Assembly (NCBI GenBank): GCA_003552585.1
Contig: PUNK01000013.1
Location: 1-64,000 of the forward strand
From: Thermoplasmata archaeon
Lineage (GTDB): Archaea > Thermoplasmatota > Thermoplasmata > Halarchaeoplasmatales > Halarchaeoplasmataceae
Length of the DNA: 64,000 bases
Direction: 5' to 3'
This document shows, piece after piece, positions 18,276 to 26,324 of this stretch. A model generated the notes under the pieces. It was not told the DNA's origin and made no database searches. It saw only the letters and a list, made by a program, of their open reading frames with translations. Each line of letters starts with the position of its first letter. Within the stretch, counting starts at the first letter, position 1. Both the position numbers and the translations under genes were made by a program.

Positions 18276-20276
18276 ATGAAAAAACATACAGCATGGGGAA
18301 TAAGTCTTATGCTCGTAATAGGGCTGATATTGGCATCAGTTCCGGTTATGGGTATGATATTACCCCACGAAAGATACGGACAGGCGTACACCGATGGCAG
18401 TGCTGCGCCTGACGGTTATACTATAACATCGTGGATATACGGTGTTGAATATGAAGACGATGAAATTTTCTTTGGCGACGGGTCATTTACTATAGTTACA
18501 GATGGTGACGAGACCACTGACGATACACAGAAGCAAGGCGGTGTCGACGGAGACGAGATATTCTACAGGATAGAAGATGATGAAGGCAATGTATACATCG
18601 CTGATGAGATCTCTATTTTTGAATCCGGTGAGATTGAAGAAGGAGATCTTAACTTCCAAGAGGGAGCACAGCCGAGCACTGAGGTCAAGATCAACGAACT
18701 GGTTTCACAACCAGAAGATGAAGGGACACAGTATGTGTACATCTATGATCCAACAGGAGAAATAGATCTAACAAGATGGAGATTGGAAGACCACGATGGA
18801 TACTCGGAAACGCTAGATGAACTGGACACACAGTATCACCCAGATCATCCAGAACTACTCTACGTAGACCTAGAAGCAGCACCATTAGGAACAGATGCAG
18901 GTCACTTCATGCTCTCTTGGGACCCCGCTGGATCCGGTGTCGGTGATAACAACTGGGTAGTCATGGACAGAGTCGAGTATGGTGGAGAAGAGTTAGATAC
19001 ATCACCCGAGAATACGATCCACGAACAGCATCCCGATGCACCTGAACAAGGCGAATGTCTCATAAGAGACCCATGGGGACACGATACCGACAACAGTGCA
19101 GACGACTTCATAATCGCCGATGAGACCGGAAGACCAGTAAGTCTGATCATTGACTCCACCGAAGGTGGCTCAGTGACCACACCAGGCGAAGGAACATATG
19201 ATTACATAACAGGAGATGTCGTTGATTTAGAGGCTGAAGCAGACACGGATTACAGTTTTGTAGAGTGGACCGGAGATATAGACACGATAGCTGATCCAGA
19301 ATCTGCAACTACAACGATAACCATGGAAGACGACTACTCGATCACAGCTAACTTCGTAGAGGATATCGAACTCTTGCCTGTTACTGGCTTAGAGGTCACA
19401 AAAGACGAAGGCGCTGGAGATGTCATCCTCGACTGGGATGATGTAGGCGCTCCTGAATACAACGTGTACTACTCAGAGGATCAGCACGCAGACCTCGAGA
19501 CTTGGACTTTGCTCGACACCGTGACTGAAGAAGAGTACATTCACGGGGATGCAATCGGCGGAAGCAACTACTACTACGTAAGAGCGAGCGATGGAACCGA
19601 GGAAGGAGATAGATCAAGCATGGGATTCTGCGTCGAGAACGACTTCGTTTATGATGCTGATGCTAGACTGCATTACGTGTCTGTACCTGGCCGGTTCAAC
19701 AACTTGCAGGAGATAACAGCCAGCGATATAGTCGAGCACATCGAAGGTGACCTGGAATCTTCAGCGTACATCGACAGAGTGGTCAAGTGGAACTACGAAG
19801 AAAGATCTTACACCGAAGCTTTTAGTTATGACGCATGGGGCGAAGTATGGACCGGCGACGATTTCGTAGTCGAGCCAGAGGCCACCCTTGGTATAAGATT
19901 GATCGATGACTTAGATTGGCACGTGAACGGTGTGGACACCGACGAGACGATGGACTTTGTTTACGACGCAGATGCTAGACTGCATTACATATCGGTACCG
20001 TACACAATGGCAGATACGGACGGTGACGGACAGATAACCGCCAGTGATATAGTCACAGCGATAGAAGGTGACCTGGAAACTTCAGCGTACATCGACAGAG
20101 TGGTCAAGTGGAACTACGAAGAAAGATCTTACACCGAGGCTTTCAGCTATGACGCATGGGGCGAAGTATGGACCGGTGACGACTTCGTCGTCGAACCAGA
20201 GGCCGCTGTTGGCATAAGACTGATCGATGACCTCGAGTGGACGCCCGAACTGATAACCCCTCTACAGGAGAGCTAG
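18276..20276 (+). CDS. Secreted multi-domain surface protein (LTD, InlB-type, FN3, two tandem repeats)
   Basis: Very acidic exported protein, 666 residues. A signal peptide spans about 1-26. Next come a carboxypeptidase-regulatory-like domain (D-G-S-A-A-P-D-G-Y-T-I-T-S-W, to about 125), a lamin-tail-type domain (V-K-I-N-E-L-V-S-Q-P, about 128-255), a bacterial-repeat domain (G-G-S-V-T-T-P-G-E-G-T-Y and F-V-E-W-T-G-D), an FN3-like domain (about 365-455) and two repeats at 456-559 and 560-666. No TM anchor or sorting signal follows the second repeat, so it is probably released or held by other proteins. Its FN3-repeat-repeat block is shared with the protein encoded at 23811. Confidence 0.87.
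   Translation: MKKHTAWGISLMLVIGLILASVPVMGMILPHERYGQAYTDGSAAPDGYTITSWIYGVEYEDDEIFFGDGSFTIVTDGDETTDDTQKQGGVDGDEIFYRIEDDEGNVYIADEISIFESGEIEEGDLNFQEGAQPSTEVKINELVSQPEDEGTQYVYIYDPTGEIDLTRWRLEDHDGYSETLDELDTQYHPDHPELLYVDLEAAPLGTDAGHFMLSWDPAGSGVGDNNWVVMDRVEYGGEELDTSPENTIHEQHPDAPEQGECLIRDPWGHDTDNSADDFIIADETGRPVSLIIDSTEGGSVTTPGEGTYDYITGDVVDLEAEADTDYSFVEWTGDIDTIADPESATTTITMEDDYSITANFVEDIELLPVTGLEVTKDEGAGDVILDWDDVGAPEYNVYYSEDQHADLETWTLLDTVTEEEYIHGDAIGGSNYYYVRASDGTEEGDRSSMGFCVENDFVYDADARLHYVSVPGRFNNLQEITASDIVEHIEGDLESSAYIDRVVKWNYEERSYTEAFSYDAWGEVWTGDDFVVEPEATLGIRLIDDLDWHVNGVDTDETMDFVYDADARLHYISVPYTMADTDGDGQITASDIVTAIEGDLETSAYIDRVVKWNYEERSYTEAFSYDAWGEVWTGDDFVVEPEAAVGIRLIDDLEWTPELITPLQES
19641..19952 (+). 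repeat. Surface-protein repeat copy 1 (gene at 18276)
   Basis: Residues 456-559 of the protein, beginning D-F-V-Y-D-A-D-A-R-L-H-Y. Within it, about 120 bases (from about 19743) recur nearly unchanged 321 bases downstream. Core motifs are I-T-A-S-D-I-V, V-V-K-W-N-Y and G-D-D-F-V-V-E-P-E-A. Confidence 0.85.
19953..20276 (+). repeat. Surface-protein repeat copy 2 (gene at 18276)
   Basis: Residues 560-666, starting D-F-V-Y-D-A-D-A-R-L-H-Y. It is three codons longer than copy 1 because of a D-T-D-G-D-G-Q loop, which looks like a dockerin/EF-hand calcium loop. It runs to the end of the gene. Confidence 0.85.
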
Positions 20277-20326: not shown

Positions 20327-21283
20327 ATGAAAAAGATAATAATAATGGCGTTGGTTTTCTCGTTGGCCCTGGTTTCGCTATCGGGGGCGGCACAAGGAAC
20401 CGTGGACGACCTTGATGGATTTGCAGTGGACAGCTACGACGGAGAGGCGGAGTTCTATGATGGAGATACTTACTATGGGACCATAACAGCGGTTGACCTG
20501 CAGGGAGATAACATTGCCATCAATACGGGTGTCGGTGGTGGTGAAGCAGATGGTTACAGCCTATTTGGATGGGCTGGTGATAGTGAGACATATGGTTGGG
20601 ACCCTGACCCAGCATCTATCGGAAGCGACATATACTTCATAGGTGAGCACCCCGACGGTTACGTCTGGGCGACGTGGAGAGAATCAGAAACTGCTACTGT
20701 AGCTGATCCACAACATTCAATGATGGGTAGATATGAGCCCATACCTACACCTGAAGTAGATGCAGTCGGTCCTGATTACATAAGTATTAACATATCAAGC
20801 CCTACTTACACAGATTTCGATGGTACAACAGGAGAAACTACAGGTCAGGGAACGTTCGAACTGGTCGAAAGCTACGCTGTTTTCATACAGGGCGGAGAAT
20901 ATGAAGACTATACCTACATAGGCGATGCTGATGATTTCTTCGATGGAGACGCTCCGATACCCGCACATCCTGATGATGAAACAGATCCCACCACAGTTGA
21001 CACCGGACACTTCCACTTCAACACAACGGATGACGAAGACATAAATATCGAGCCCGAGACTGAGTACACCATCTACGTCCGCATGAACATCGGACCGGAA
21101 GGACTCGCAGGCGGATACGAAGATGTAGATGACCATTATACAACAACGATCGGCGGTGAATCCACTGACCCGATAGAGACACCGAGCGAATCAGAGTTCG
21201 GACCAGGTATTATCGTTCCAGTTATAGCGATAGTAGGGATGTTCGTGGCAATGACCATCTACAGACGGCGCAGGTACGACTGA
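20327..21283 (+). CDS. Exported protein with tripartite C-terminal sorting signal, probable archaeosortase substrate
   Basis: Surface protein of 318 residues. A signal peptide covers 1-22 (I-I-I-M-A-L-V-F-S-L-A-L-V). An FN3-like domain (about 140-280) starts P-T-P-E-V-D-A-V-G-P-D-Y-I. The C-terminus has an acidic Ser/Thr linker, a short motif E-F-G-P-G, a hydrophobic helix of about 21 residues and a terminal R-R-R-R-Y-D. That order (motif, TM, basic cluster) is the layout of PGF-CTERM and related archaeosortase substrates, although the motif differs. The archaeosortase gene follows 115 bases downstream. The ATG at 20327 is used: AAAGGAGAAG ends seven bases before it and the signal peptide starts there; a further ATG lies at 20306. 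Confidence 0.85.
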   Translation: MKKIIIMALVFSLALVSLSGAAQGTVDDLDGFAVDSYDGEAEFYDGDTYYGTITAVDLQGDNIAINTGVGGGEADGYSLFGWAGDSETYGWDPDPASIGSDIYFIGEHPDGYVWATWRESETATVADPQHSMMGRYEPIPTPEVDAVGPDYISINISSPTYTDFDGTTGETTGQGTFELVESYAVFIQGGEYEDYTYIGDADDFFDGDAPIPAHPDDETDPTTVDTGHFHFNTTDDEDINIEPETEYTIYVRMNIGPEGLAGGYEDVDDHYTTTIGGESTDPIETPSESEFGPGIIVPVIAIVGMFVAMTIYRRRRYD

Positions 21284-21311
21284 AACCGAAGCTAAACGAT
21301 CTACAAACCAA

Positions 21312-21341
21312 AACCCCTTTCCTTTTTTCTATTAATTTTTT
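21312..21341 (+). terminator. T-rich tract after the sorting-substrate gene
   Basis: Several runs of T (CCCCTTTCCTTTTTTC and ATTTTTT) begin about 30 bases after the stop at 21283. Archaeal RNA polymerase stops on such tracts. The right end merges with a TATA-like element for the next gene. Confidence 0.4.
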
Positions 21342-21350
21342 ATAACAAAA
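21332..21350 (+). promoter_or_regulatory. TATA-like element before the archaeosortase gene
   Basis: Identical over 19 bases to 12454-12472. With a transcript start about 25 bases on, the leader to the ATG at 21399 would be about 30 bases. No clear ribosome site is visible before that ATG. Confidence 0.4.
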
Positions 21351-21398
21351 TAGCTAGACGGCGCAAAGTATTTTAACTAACTATATCAATGTTAACAC

Positions 21399-22799
21399 AT
21401 GAGCGGGTTCAACCGCTGGAGGTTTTTCGCAGGGATAATAGTGTTCTTCGCAGGTCTCGACGTGACCTTATTACTCAGCCACATGTCACGCTTGATTGGA
21501 GTCGCTATGTTGTTCGTGGGGGGTTGCCTGATAGCGTCCTCCCACCCGCACTGGTCCAACAGGATGAAAAACAAGATCCCTGAATCTCTCAGGTCTCACT
21601 TCTCGCTCGATAATATGAAGATATATCAGCACCTATTATCGATCGTGCTGATCGCAGCAAGCTTTTACTTTTTTATTCCACAACCCCTCGTTCTACTTCT
21701 AGTGCTAGCCCTGATCATAGCAGTTTGGCTAGTCTTAAAATTTAGCTCATATGGAGACCAACTTCCCCTCATACTCGTTTCCATGGAATTCCAGTTATTC
21801 GTATTCCTCTCGACTTTGATATTCCTAAACTTTGGAACGATCTTTGGATACCGGGATCCACCTGAGATATTTCCAACGATCTTTCTTCTGTCAGCCTGGG
21901 CCATCGAGATGATATATTTACATGGAAGATTAACTAGCCATGTAAAAGAAACTCCAGAAATATCCCTTGAATCAGAAGAAGCCGAGAAAGAGGAAGGGGA
22001 AACCGTGTATCTTTCAGAAAGATTTTTGGATCTTTTTACCTTCCACGGCAGATTTAAAAAATATCTACCATTAGCCGGGATCGCTGTCTTTGTAGGTGTT
22101 TTCGCTTTCAATATCTATATCAGGGGCTATGAGTTGAGTTTTGGCTCACACGATGGTGTTACATTGCTACTCGGAGTCGTACTGATCGCATACAATTACA
22201 TCCCCAAAAAATACTCTTTAGAACGTGATTTTGCTTTGCTCTTCCTGGTATTCCTTTTCCTCATACTCATCCTCCCGATAACCATCATCCACTACTTCTA
22301 TGGAGGGATGACCGAGGCAACAAACTCTCCTGTAGTATACCACCTACTGGCACGTCCAACGGCAGCCTTTTTGAATATCCTAGGCATATCAGCAAACGCT
22401 GCCGTGCGAGGAGAATGGGTTGTCATACGGATGTTAGTGCCATCCGGGGGAACAGCCCAGAATCACATACGAGCTGAGGTGGGTATAGGACTGTCATGTA
22501 CAGGCCTTTATTCAGTGTCGATATTCATCTCTGCCTTCTTATCATTCATAATGACCCATTTCAAAAAATTAGATATGAAATTATTATCGTTCATGGGTCT
22601 CGGTATATTCGCCTCATGGATAGCCAATATACTTAGGATGACCATAATAATGGTGATGGGACACCTATACGGTCTTCAGGCCATGTCTTGGACACACAAC
22701 AATGCCGGCATATTCATCTTCATGGTATGGATAGCTTTATTTTGGGGGCTGATGTTCAAGTATTTCGACATACCACTGCGCACTTTCGGCGGAGAGTAG
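21399..22799 (+). CDS. Archaeosortase/exosortase-family membrane peptidase-transferase
   Basis: Polytopic membrane protein of 466 residues with about 12 hydrophobic segments. The C-terminal part has the exosortase/archaeosortase triad in order: C367 in G-I-G-L-S-C-T-G-L-Y-S, R413 in A-N-I-L-R-M-T-I, and H433 in W-T-H-N-N-A-G-I-F. Known members cut a C-terminal signal of surface proteins and transfer them to a lipid or other anchor. The usual enzyme is about 270-330 residues; here an extra N-terminal membrane region (about 1-220, with an acidic cytoplasmic loop at 184-205) is attached. The gene just upstream encodes a fitting substrate. Confidence 0.86.
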   Translation: MSGFNRWRFFAGIIVFFAGLDVTLLLSHMSRLIGVAMLFVGGCLIASSHPHWSNRMKNKIPESLRSHFSLDNMKIYQHLLSIVLIAASFYFFIPQPLVLLLVLALIIAVWLVLKFSSYGDQLPLILVSMEFQLFVFLSTLIFLNFGTIFGYRDPPEIFPTIFLLSAWAIEMIYLHGRLTSHVKETPEISLESEEAEKEEGETVYLSERFLDLFTFHGRFKKYLPLAGIAVFVGVFAFNIYIRGYELSFGSHDGVTLLLGVVLIAYNYIPKKYSLERDFALLFLVFLFLILILPITIIHYFYGGMTEATNSPVVYHLLARPTAAFLNILGISANAAVRGEWVVIRMLVPSGGTAQNHIRAEVGIGLSCTGLYSVSIFISAFLSFIMTHFKKLDMKLLSFMGLGIFASWIANILRMTIIMVMGHLYGLQAMSWTHNNAGIFIFMVWIALFWGLMFKYFDIPLRTFGGE

Positions 22800-22832: not shown

Positions 22833-23783
22833 ATGATCAACAGATACCGAGCCATCCTTCGAGGAGAAAAAAATCCCTACTATCTAGAAGCTCTTGAAAA
22901 GGATGTGGGTGGACCTCTTTATGACAAAAGCTATCCTCAACTGTGGGAGCTCCACGATGATATCCTAAAAAAAGATGTACCGTCTATACAGTTAAAGTTG
23001 GAGATCGCAAACAGGATGATGGAACGGTGCACCATGTGTGAGTGGAGATGTGGGGTCGATCGCAAGAGGGGGGATATCGGTAGGTGTGGAGTATCCGATG
23101 AATCGAAGGTATCTTCGATGTTCTTACACCCCGGCGAAGAACGAGTGCTCGTGCCTTCTCACACGATCTTCTTCTCTAGATGTAACTTCTCCTGCGTCTT
23201 TTGCCAGAACTGGGACATAAGTCAAAGAGGTGGTGGCAGATACATACGTCCCTTATCGTTGGCCGGTAGACTGGACTGCGGAGGGGGTAAGAATGTCAAT
23301 TGGGTGGGTGGAGATCCCACTCCCAACCTGGCATACATAATAGAAGTTATAAGTCACATGACAGCACCTTTACCCCAGATATGGAACTCGAACATGTACC
23401 TCTCTAAAGAGGGTATGAAGCTTCTGGCGAAGCTGATGGATGTTTACCTGACCGATTTTAAGTACGGGAACGATGATTGTGCTGAAATGCTTTCCGGGGT
23501 GCAAAATTACACTGATATAGTAAAAAGAAATCATCTATTCGCTGAGAAAACAGGTGATCTGATCATCAGACACCTTGTGTTACCAGATCACTTGGAATGC
23601 TGTACGAAGCCACTATTAAGATGGATAGATGAAAACCTTAAGGATCCTGCGGTAAACGTGATGACCCAATACCGTCCTTCTTACCAAGCAGATCAACACC
23701 CAGACATAAACCGATATCTCTCTCGAGAAGAACTGCGGATGATAAGTAAGCTGAAGAACGATTACTCCCATCTGATACTGTAA
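22833..23783 (+). CDS. Radical SAM protein of the PflX/COG1313 type
   Basis: Fe-S enzyme of 316 residues, reaction unknown. The radical SAM motif is C117-x3-C121-x2-C124 (R-C-N-F-S-C-V-F-C-Q-N-W). An additional four-cysteine site lies N-terminally: C66, C69, C73, C85 (T-M-C-E-W-R-C-G-V-D-R). The signature G-G-K-N-V-N-W-V-G-G-D-P-T-P is typical of this family. Relatives resemble pyruvate formate-lyase activating enzyme, but no glycyl radical enzyme gene is present. It starts 33 bases after the archaeosortase stop and precedes the RING-tailed surface protein by 27 bases, so all three may be co-transcribed. Confidence 0.88.
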   Translation: MINRYRAILRGEKNPYYLEALEKDVGGPLYDKSYPQLWELHDDILKKDVPSIQLKLEIANRMMERCTMCEWRCGVDRKRGDIGRCGVSDESKVSSMFLHPGEERVLVPSHTIFFSRCNFSCVFCQNWDISQRGGGRYIRPLSLAGRLDCGGGKNVNWVGGDPTPNLAYIIEVISHMTAPLPQIWNSNMYLSKEGMKLLAKLMDVYLTDFKYGNDDCAEMLSGVQNYTDIVKRNHLFAEKTGDLIIRHLVLPDHLECCTKPLLRWIDENLKDPAVNVMTQYRPSYQADQHPDINRYLSREELRMISKLKNDYSHLIL

Positions 23784-23810: not shown

Positions 23811-26324
23811 ATGGTTCATACGCGGTCAGCCATGCGAGAGAAGATGGTTTCAATGCTTCTGCTCTGTTTAGTTATGCTCAGCATAGTGGCAGTGTCAGGA
23901 GGGAACGATATCGAGCTATGTGATACGGACGAAGATCATTCCTATATGGATATCCCTGCACCGGAAAATTTTGAGGTGAGGAAGGAAGGCGATGATGTTT
24001 TACTGGAATGGGATGCCATCGAGGATGTAAGTCATTATAAGGTGTACTACTCCACCGATCTATATTCCTCCTTCCCGGAGGATTGGGAAGAAGACCTGAC
24101 TTCGGACGAACGATGGACTCACGAAGACGCTCTTCTGAGTGGAGAAAACAACTACTATCTTGTTCGTGGGGTAGAGGATGAGATGGAAGGGAGGATCTCG
24201 AACACCGGGGCCTGTGTGAAGATGGACCTCACATATGACCATGATCAACGATTGCACTATGTATCCATCCCAAATGGATTTGATAACCGAGATAAGATCT
24301 CTGCCAGCGATATAGTCGAGCACATAGAAGGGGATCTGAAAACGTCTGAGTACATCGACAGTGTGGTCAAGTGGGATTACACACAAAGAGGTTACACCGA
24401 GGCTTTCAGTTACGATGCAATTGTACAGGAATGGTCAGGCGAAGACTTCGTAGTCGAACCCGAGGCGACCGTCGGACTAAAGCTCGTCGACAACCTGACA
24501 TGGTCCGTGAATGCAGTGGAATCTTATGAAAGGATGGAGTTCAAATATGAGTCAGATGCAAGACTTCATTATATCTCTGTTCCGTACACGATGCTCGATC
24601 GGGACGCTGGAGGTCATATAACGGCCAGTGATGTAGTGATGGATGTGGAAGGTGACCTGAAAACATCTGAGTACATCGACAGCGTGGTCAAGTGGGATTA
24701 CACCGAAAGAGGTTACACCGAGGTTTTCAGCTATGAGGCAATGAGCCAGACATGGGGTGGTGACGACTTCATCGTCGAGCCGGAGGCCGCTGTCGGTCTA
24801 AGACTGGTCGCTGACCTTGAATGGACTCCCACCCTTTCAAATTTTGAACCTCCCATCGTGTGCTCGGTGGAGATAGAGGAAGATATCATCGTGGAGTTCT
24901 CGAAAAGTATGAACAAGACTACTTTTGAAGATAGGGTGTTTTTAGACGATATTTCACAATATCCCGAATGGGAATCAGAGCAGGTCATGCGGATAGGATA
25001 CGATGACCAAGATCCTAGATGGCAGGTACTGACTATCGAGGCGTCGGTAACCGATATGTATGGAAACAACCTGGATGGGGATGGGGATGGCATATCATAT
25101 GGAGGCGAATCCGATGATTTCGTCTACAAGATCTTCACCGGAACTAGACCTGAAATAGTGGTCGAACAACCGCCCGAAGAACTACTTTTGGGAGAAGCCC
25201 CGATAATAACTGCAAACGTTACCGGTGCTGAACAAGTCTTTTTAAACTATACTATCAACGATGAAGTACACAACGTGAGCATGGAAAACAACAGCAGCTA
25301 TCATCATAGGATACCACCTGTATGGCATCCCGGGACTATCGAATATCATTTGACCGCTGTCGATCACGATGGTATTTGGAATAGTTCAGAACAACATACT
25401 ATTGAGGTCGAGGACCCAGGAACTTGGGGCTCTTCTTCGATAATTCATACATCTGAAACGAATAAAAGCTGTAAGACGGAAGACATAAGCATCAACGTTT
25501 CCACCACCTATCATGTTCAACCGGTTCAAGTGAACCTTTCCTTCATCGAGCCGTATGGTCACATGCACAACATATCTATGCAGAAGAACATAGATAACTG
25601 GACATGTGCTATACCGGCACAAAACAGAACTGGTATCCTTGAATACTGGTTCGAGATAAAATACGAGAACGGACCAACCGTCGGATCCAAAACCTATGAG
25701 ATCTCTCTGGAAAATCCTATCGAAGTCGATTTCCAAGATTTAAGGGGAAAAGCAGATGAGAACTTGGACTTCGAAGTGATACTTTCTTCACCACGAGGTG
25801 TTCAAGCAGCGACCTTGCATATGCAGGATGACGACCTGTCGATAAACGAGGATCTGACGCTCGTCGAAGGTGATCCTGGAAACGGCACGTGGGGTGCAAC
25901 GATAAAATTACCTGAAGGAGAGTTTGACTACAGTCTCAGCGTGGTTGATATGGATGGAGATGATGTCCTTTTCCGATCCAACACACCTCTAAGAGTAGAT
26001 GGATCTGAAGGCTCCTTTAACTTATTATGGTTGGTCATCCTAGCAGTGTCATCGGCCGCCATAGCCTTCGTAGTGATGTATAGATCCAGAGAGAAAGAAG
26101 TAGAAGAAGAAAAAGTTATCGCCACAGAATCCGAAAACTCCAAAACTGAAAACGAACAAGTTAATAAAGAACACTGTATTATCTGTTTTGGTCGGCTAAA
26201 AGATGGAGAGAACCACTATACCTGCGATGGTTGTGGCAGTCTGTTCCACCCGGCCTGTATACACGAAGTTGTCAAATGTCCTATGTGTACAAAAGAATAC
26301 GAAGGTGTTGAAGATGGTCGATAG
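23811..26324 (+). CDS. Surface protein with FN3, tandem repeats, Ig-like domains, one TM and a cytoplasmic RING/PHD-like zinc finger
   Basis: Receptor-like protein, 837 residues. A signal peptide covers about 1-30, an FN3-like domain about 45-135, repeats 139-242 and 243-340, then a Big-type domain (E-F-S-K-S-M-N-K-T-T) and Ig-like domains to about 730. One TM helix spans 738-758. The tail of about 79 residues is charged and ends with C789-x2-C792-x12-C805-x2-C808-x4-H813-x2-C816-x6-C823-x2-C826, a C4HC3 zinc pattern like PHD or RING-variant fingers. By topology the finger is inside the cell. Whether it binds protein partners or acts with a ubiquitin-like modifier is unknown. Its 3' end overlaps proS by 11 bases. 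Confidence 0.86.
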   Translation: MVHTRSAMREKMVSMLLLCLVMLSIVAVSGGNDIELCDTDEDHSYMDIPAPENFEVRKEGDDVLLEWDAIEDVSHYKVYYSTDLYSSFPEDWEEDLTSDERWTHEDALLSGENNYYLVRGVEDEMEGRISNTGACVKMDLTYDHDQRLHYVSIPNGFDNRDKISASDIVEHIEGDLKTSEYIDSVVKWDYTQRGYTEAFSYDAIVQEWSGEDFVVEPEATVGLKLVDNLTWSVNAVESYERMEFKYESDARLHYISVPYTMLDRDAGGHITASDVVMDVEGDLKTSEYIDSVVKWDYTERGYTEVFSYEAMSQTWGGDDFIVEPEAAVGLRLVADLEWTPTLSNFEPPIVCSVEIEEDIIVEFSKSMNKTTFEDRVFLDDISQYPEWESEQVMRIGYDDQDPRWQVLTIEASVTDMYGNNLDGDGDGISYGGESDDFVYKIFTGTRPEIVVEQPPEELLLGEAPIITANVTGAEQVFLNYTINDEVHNVSMENNSSYHHRIPPVWHPGTIEYHLTAVDHDGIWNSSEQHTIEVEDPGTWGSSSIIHTSETNKSCKTEDISINVSTTYHVQPVQVNLSFIEPYGHMHNISMQKNIDNWTCAIPAQNRTGILEYWFEIKYENGPTVGSKTYEISLENPIEVDFQDLRGKADENLDFEVILSSPRGVQAATLHMQDDDLSINEDLTLVEGDPGNGTWGATIKLPEGEFDYSLSVVDMDGDDVLFRSNTPLRVDGSEGSFNLLWLVILAVSSAAIAFVVMYRSREKEVEEEKVIATESENSKTENEQVNKEHCIICFGRLKDGENHYTCDGCGSLFHPACIHEVVKCPMCTKEYEGVEDGR
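24225..24536 (+). repeat. Surface-protein repeat copy 1 (gene at 23811)
   Basis: Residues 139-242, beginning D-L-T-Y-D-H-D-Q-R-L-H-Y. It has the same I-S-A-S-D-I-V, V-V-K-W-D-Y and G-E-D-F-V-V-E-P-E-A core as the repeats at 19641 and 19953. Confidence 0.85.
24537..24836 (+). repeat. Surface-protein repeat copy 2 (gene at 23811)
   Basis: Residues 243-342, beginning E-F-K-Y-E-S-D-A-R-L-H-Y. The core segment recurs 321 bases after the same segment of copy 1, the same spacing as in the gene at 18276. The calcium-type loop is degenerate (D-R-D-A-G-G-H). Confidence 0.82.

Follow-up and report, generated by a model that had tools for sequence, protein, structure and literature searches.

Gene organisation of the locus

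The window analysed here, the first 64,000 nucleotides of contig PUNK01000013.1 from a Thermoplasmata archaeon (assembly GCA_003552585.1), carries a gene for an exported protein directly upstream of a membrane protein gene (Table 1). The original prediction regarded these two as a self-contained archaeosortase system, in which an enzyme and a dedicated substrate form one pair. The reading frame of the candidate substrate is open from 20306, but the start at 20327 is favoured by a GGAG immediately in front and by the resulting N-terminus, MKKIIIMALVFSLALVSLSGAA, which resembles a signal peptide. Between the two genes, positions 21316–21345 (about 30 bases) are T-rich, so that the genes may have separate transcripts.

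Table 1. Features of the archaeosortase locus, in window coordinates.
Feature	Position	Strand	Evidence or note
Secreted protein without C-terminal anchor; possible partner	18276..20276	+	In G001 and G018, a homologue precedes the substrate gene
Candidate companion substrate, an exported protein that has a signal peptide and a PEF-CTERM-type tail (SEFGPG-TM-RRRR)	20327..21283	+	Reading frame, neighbours in relatives, leave-one-out profiles
Predicted tripartite sorting signal in the substrate tail, with EF motif, TM helix and Arg cluster	21188..21280	+	Profile E 4.0e-21 (own seed included); leave-one-out E 4.5e-18
ArtC-like archaeosortase, 466 aa	21399..22799	+	TIGR04178, PF09721 and TIGR03762 scores; AF2 model pLDDT 80.7
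N-terminal TM hairpin (residues 1–51), common to class relatives	21399..21551	+	Searches, alignment, AF2 model
Order-specific membrane insertion (residues about 54–195)	21558..21983	+	Searches and alignments
Catalytic core with C367, R413 and H433 (residues about 205–455)	22011..22763	+	Profile matches, alignment of homologues
Syntenic radical SAM gene, for which membership of the system is not claimed	22833..23783	+	Marker for judging presence or absence of the locus

The enzyme is a divergent member of the archaeosortases

The protein encoded at 21399–22799 exceeded both curated superfamily cut-offs, with TIGR04178 at 46.3 bits (cut-off 23, E 3.9e-12) and PF09721 at 39.1 bits (cut-off 25.7), and on these profile scores it is a member of the exosortase/archaeosortase superfamily, as had been predicted. 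The ordered triad that was first noticed in the protein, C367 (GLSCTGLYS), R413 (ANILRMT) and H433 (WTHNNAG), is invariant in all 30 homologous catalytic domains aligned, and so are G369 and G437. According to the alignment and the helical AF2 model, these Cys, Arg and His residues lie within or beside TM helices, the arrangement by which the superfamily is recognised. The assignment to a subfamily is looser: the archaeosortase C profile TIGR03762 gave 41.3 bits, short of its 100-bit cut-off, with relatives scoring 42–84 bits, and the archaeosortase A profile TIGR04125 (cut-off 75 bits) did not list the window enzyme at E values up to 1. A sequence search of the PDB returned no relative, and Foldseek with the AF2 model found nothing in the PDB at E ≤ 0.001. 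The description that fits best is a divergent archaeosortase-C-like protein for which one linked and several unlinked substrates are predicted; by analogy with Haloferax ArtA, it probably cuts and re-anchors cell-surface proteins.

Ahead of the catalytic core, the original prediction had seen an N-terminal membrane extension of about 220 residues that might mark a distinct subfamily. The extension does mark a clade, as the enzymes of the order form a single one (support 100/99); it is not, however, some 220 foreign residues, since it is made up of a hairpin of about 50 residues, matched in class relatives at E values of about 1e-8 to 1e-10, and an insertion of about 140 residues (residues ~54–195) which is missing from every aligned enzyme of the class outside the order. 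The AF2 model is helical in the extension, with confidence below the overall pLDDT over residues 141–200, and neither the PDB sequence search nor Foldseek revealed a solved structure resembling it.

The candidate substrate ends in a PEF-CTERM-type signal

The C-terminus of the candidate substrate, SEFGPGIIVPVIAIVGMFVAMTIYRRRRYD, has the form SEFGPG-helix-RRRRYD, in line with the motif, TM helix and four arginines noted originally. The curated PEF-CTERM profile TIGR03024 gave 17 bits, under its cut-off of 23, and is uninformative by itself at lax E values, where it also matched in 11 of 14 control genomes. Custom profiles were more telling: those built only from the neighbours in three relatives, from two neighbours of another family, or from unrelated proteins with PEF tails in other genomes found the window tail at E values of 4.5e-18, 6.9e-6 and 5.8e-10, respectively. 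Among 297 ORFs, the profiles built without the window sequence brought no non-candidate ORF below 0.1, and with the unrelated-PEF profile none outside the candidate targets fell below E 0.4. As the leave-out profiles recognise the tail without competing ORFs, its likeness to the signal is not due to chance, and by sequence the tail belongs among the sorting signals of PEF-CTERM type. Conservation is concentrated there, with 52–97% identity between the tails of homologous substrates vs 33–47% between their bodies, and the EF..PV motif is invariant among otherwise unrelated proteins. The adjacent signal of the order is further distinguished by GPG and by one residue more between EF and PV. An AF2 model of the substrate had a pLDDT of 38, too low for a fold search.

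Enzyme and PEF neighbour are paired in two families

A full-type enzyme occurs in 5 of the 16 genomes of the order, the window's own included. Wherever the flank was assembled in the other genomes (G001, G003 and G015), the gene directly upstream of the enzyme ends in PEFGPG-TM-basic (3/3); in the fourth relative, G006, the contig ends inside the enzyme. A homologous PEF protein also adjoins the enzyme, in a different orientation, in two genomes of family f4 (G018 and G041), whose enzymes do not have the order-specific insertion. The adjacency of enzyme and candidate substrate is thus conserved across two families. The protein at 18276–20276 has homologues in G001 (54% over 288 aa) and G018 (E 8e-59).

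Several other features of the neighbourhood were observed. The exported protein encoded downstream, at 23811–26324, has a TM helix and a RING-like tail at its C-terminus, and the same ending was found at L017:7498–9990 and L020:3777–6644, three genera in all. A related repeated domain is present in this protein and in that at 18276–20276, the latter with an EF-hand-like loop, DTDGDGQITASDIV, below the Pfam cut-off; homologues of these proteins lie near the enzyme in G001, G018 and G036. Many class relatives of the enzyme end in a tail rich in Cys and His, similar in weak, sub-cut-off matches to RING or C1 zinc fingers (L125, L127, L129, L130, L131, L132, L133, L134, L135, L136, L139 and L140), and few PEF tails were seen in genomes with such an enzyme. 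The order's own enzymes have no RING-like tail, unlike the exported protein at 23811–26324.

Further PEF tails and a second archaeosortase in the same genome

The system is not self-contained, as the window's genome encodes at least three further PEF-type tails and a separate archaeosortase of ArtA type. The tails lie on contigs C16 (VPEFGNLILPV), C75 (ISEFSTVVIPV) and C60 (ISEFEDTILPV..YRRKKE, then a further tail), were matched by other-genome profiles at E values of 6.6e-9 to 9.3e-14, and belong to two beta-propeller-like proteins and one of 1642 aa. Together with the neighbour they make four PEF-type tails by custom profile, none of which reached the curated TIGR03024 cut-off. The form of the C60 tail is not disqualifying, since Haloferax ArtA reportedly acts on a tripartite signal away from the very C-terminus (work cited in PMC7157517). 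Large proteins with this arrangement (L026, L033, L034, L035 and L037) have a PEF signal followed by a tail of ~30–50 residues, as if the signal were internal.

No second ArtC-type enzyme was found in the genome. The ArtA-type gene lies at C75:31697–32524, and its homologues pass the TIGR04125 cut-off; on the same contig (L121:5683–9285) the ArtA-like gene is tandemly duplicated with a 155-aa and a transporter-like gene, the second ArtA copy being a 98-aa remnant. A native-looking PGF-like tail is present on C9 (23.5 bits, just under its cut-off). A strong PGF-CTERM protein at 46.6 bits (L114, C12:2745–2828) was set aside as native evidence, because its stretch has 57.5% G+C vs 42% for the window, which suggests a haloarchaeal contaminant in the assembly or a recent transfer.

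Co-occurrence and apparent loss of enzyme and signal

Across 30 genomes of the class, PEF matches at E ≤ 1e-5 were found in 9 of the 11 whose enzyme is untailed vs 1 of the 19 others (Fisher p 3.5e-5, which overstates the strength of the association because the genomes are related, their counts phylogenetically non-independent, and two seeds were included). Four genomes (G002, G005, G007 and G014) have PEF tails and no detected enzyme. The ArtC-like enzyme was not detected in these or in G004, all being PEF-positive or incomplete, and this absence is uninformative because the flanking radical SAM gene is also missing from the assemblies. G008 is an exception, with the radical SAM locus and PEF-like tails present and the enzyme undetected in a genome that is 61% complete.

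An apparent natural co-loss was observed in genus g5 (five species, 83–94% complete), where the N-terminal domain of the enzyme was found alone (E 4e-9 to 7.5e-16). The hairpin and insertion end there in a stop codon as a stand-alone protein, with the same radical SAM gene about 45–70 bases on in four of the five. The 35-row alignment places these domains poorly, hence a separate alignment and search matches were used for them. G012 still has the beta-propeller gene and the homologue of 18276 in place, with the substrate gene missing. None of the five g5 genomes gave a full-length PEF match (best partial match 0.027), while PEF tails were found in 10 of the 11 other genomes of the order at E ≤ 3e-5 by a census profile that includes sequences from several of these 11, a narrower profile agreeing for most. 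As g5 groups in a single-gene tree with g4 and with g6, which has the full pair, loss is favoured over an ancestral split. This joint disappearance of the catalytic domain and the PEF tails supports a link between enzyme and signal. With odds a little short of even, the N-terminal membrane domain (~180 residues) may be a functional module in its own right, binding for instance lipid, the translocon or a partner protein, which works with the archaeosortase when fused and kept a separate role in g5 after the catalytic domain and PEF substrates were lost.

Proposed mechanism and alternative explanations

We consider it highly probable that the enzyme works as a membrane cysteine transpeptidase of archaeosortase-C-like type and that it serves both the neighbour, its most constantly linked substrate, and the other PEF-tailed proteins of the genome. 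In this scheme, the signal peptide would direct export of the substrate, which would stay in the membrane by its C-terminal helix, the basic residues remaining inside. Cleavage by the enzyme would follow on the outer face, at the EF motif or close to it, and proceed via an acyl intermediate linked to Cys, with Arg and His assisting; the tail peptide would be released and the new C-terminus passed to a membrane-lipid amine, giving a lipid-anchored surface protein. The two beta-propeller-like proteins and the 1642-aa protein would be processed in the same way. Cleavage site, acyl intermediate and lipid transfer are modelled on Haloferax ArtA, in which Cys-173 is an active-site residue and a lipid amine is proposed to resolve a thioester intermediate (PMC7157517). 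Speaking against this reading, enzyme and tail both score below their own curated ArtC and PEF-CTERM cut-offs.

The same data bear on three other explanations. A strictly dedicated pair of one enzyme and one substrate, as originally predicted, would fit the adjacency kept across two families and the GPG and extra residue of the order's adjacent signal, but the tails on C16, C75 and C60 give the genome more than a single target and no other ArtC-type enzyme was found for them, making exclusive pairing improbable. We regard it as still less probable that the ArtA-type enzyme processes the unlinked or all PEF proteins, leaving a different role for the window enzyme. An ArtA-like gene is indeed present in the same genome, and G002, G007 and G014 combine PEF tails and ArtA with an undetected ArtC-like enzyme; these enzyme-less assemblies, however, also lack the enzyme's neighbour gene. 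Moreover, ArtA is kept in three g5 genomes that have no PEF tails, hence the presence of PEF tails tracks the ArtC-like enzyme and not ArtA, whose partner in the literature is PGF-CTERM (PMC5244752), and the genome does hold a PGF-like tail.

The C-terminal helix could also be a plain membrane anchor unrelated to the neighbouring enzyme, as a helix with flanking basic residues fits ordinary tail anchors too. This is very hard to reconcile with an EF..PV motif invariant in otherwise unrelated proteins, with conservation concentrated in the tail and with an adjacency conserved in both families, and we give it scarcely any credence.

Comparison with known sorting systems

Our results extend ArtC-like archaeosortases and the PEF-type signal to an archaeal lineage in which none of the curated subfamilies fits, a relative of Methanomassiliicoccales by class-level matches. 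The g5 genomes, a natural experiment in which the N-terminal domain was kept and the catalytic domain and PEF tails were lost, raise the question of which part of an archaeosortase recognises the substrate or lipid, and reconstitution could draw on the locus for an enzyme and its linked substrate.

The closest known system is archaeosortase C with PEF-CTERM (TIGR03762/TIGR03024), a pairing reported previously (PMC5244752). It offers the best subfamily profile for the window enzyme and has the same type of signal (EF motif, TM, basic cluster) and several targets per enzyme. The window system differs in its scores (41 vs a cut-off of 100 bits for the enzyme, 17 vs 23 for the tail), its ~140-residue membrane insertion and its linked target, which is kept in two families. 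Archaeosortase A with PGF-CTERM (TIGR04125/TIGR04126) of Haloferax volcanii, an archaeosortase with a worked mechanism (PMC7157517), shares the superfamily, catalytic Cys and tripartite signal; however, the window enzyme has no TIGR04125 match and the ArtA-type gene is separate in the genome. As in the dedicated enzyme–target pairs of sortases, exosortases and rhombosortases, the enzyme gene adjoins a target gene, but with several predicted targets it is not dedicated by the published definition (PMC3237569). The kind of system is already known; what distinguishes it here is the extra membrane segment, kept by some relatives after losing the catalytic part and the substrates.
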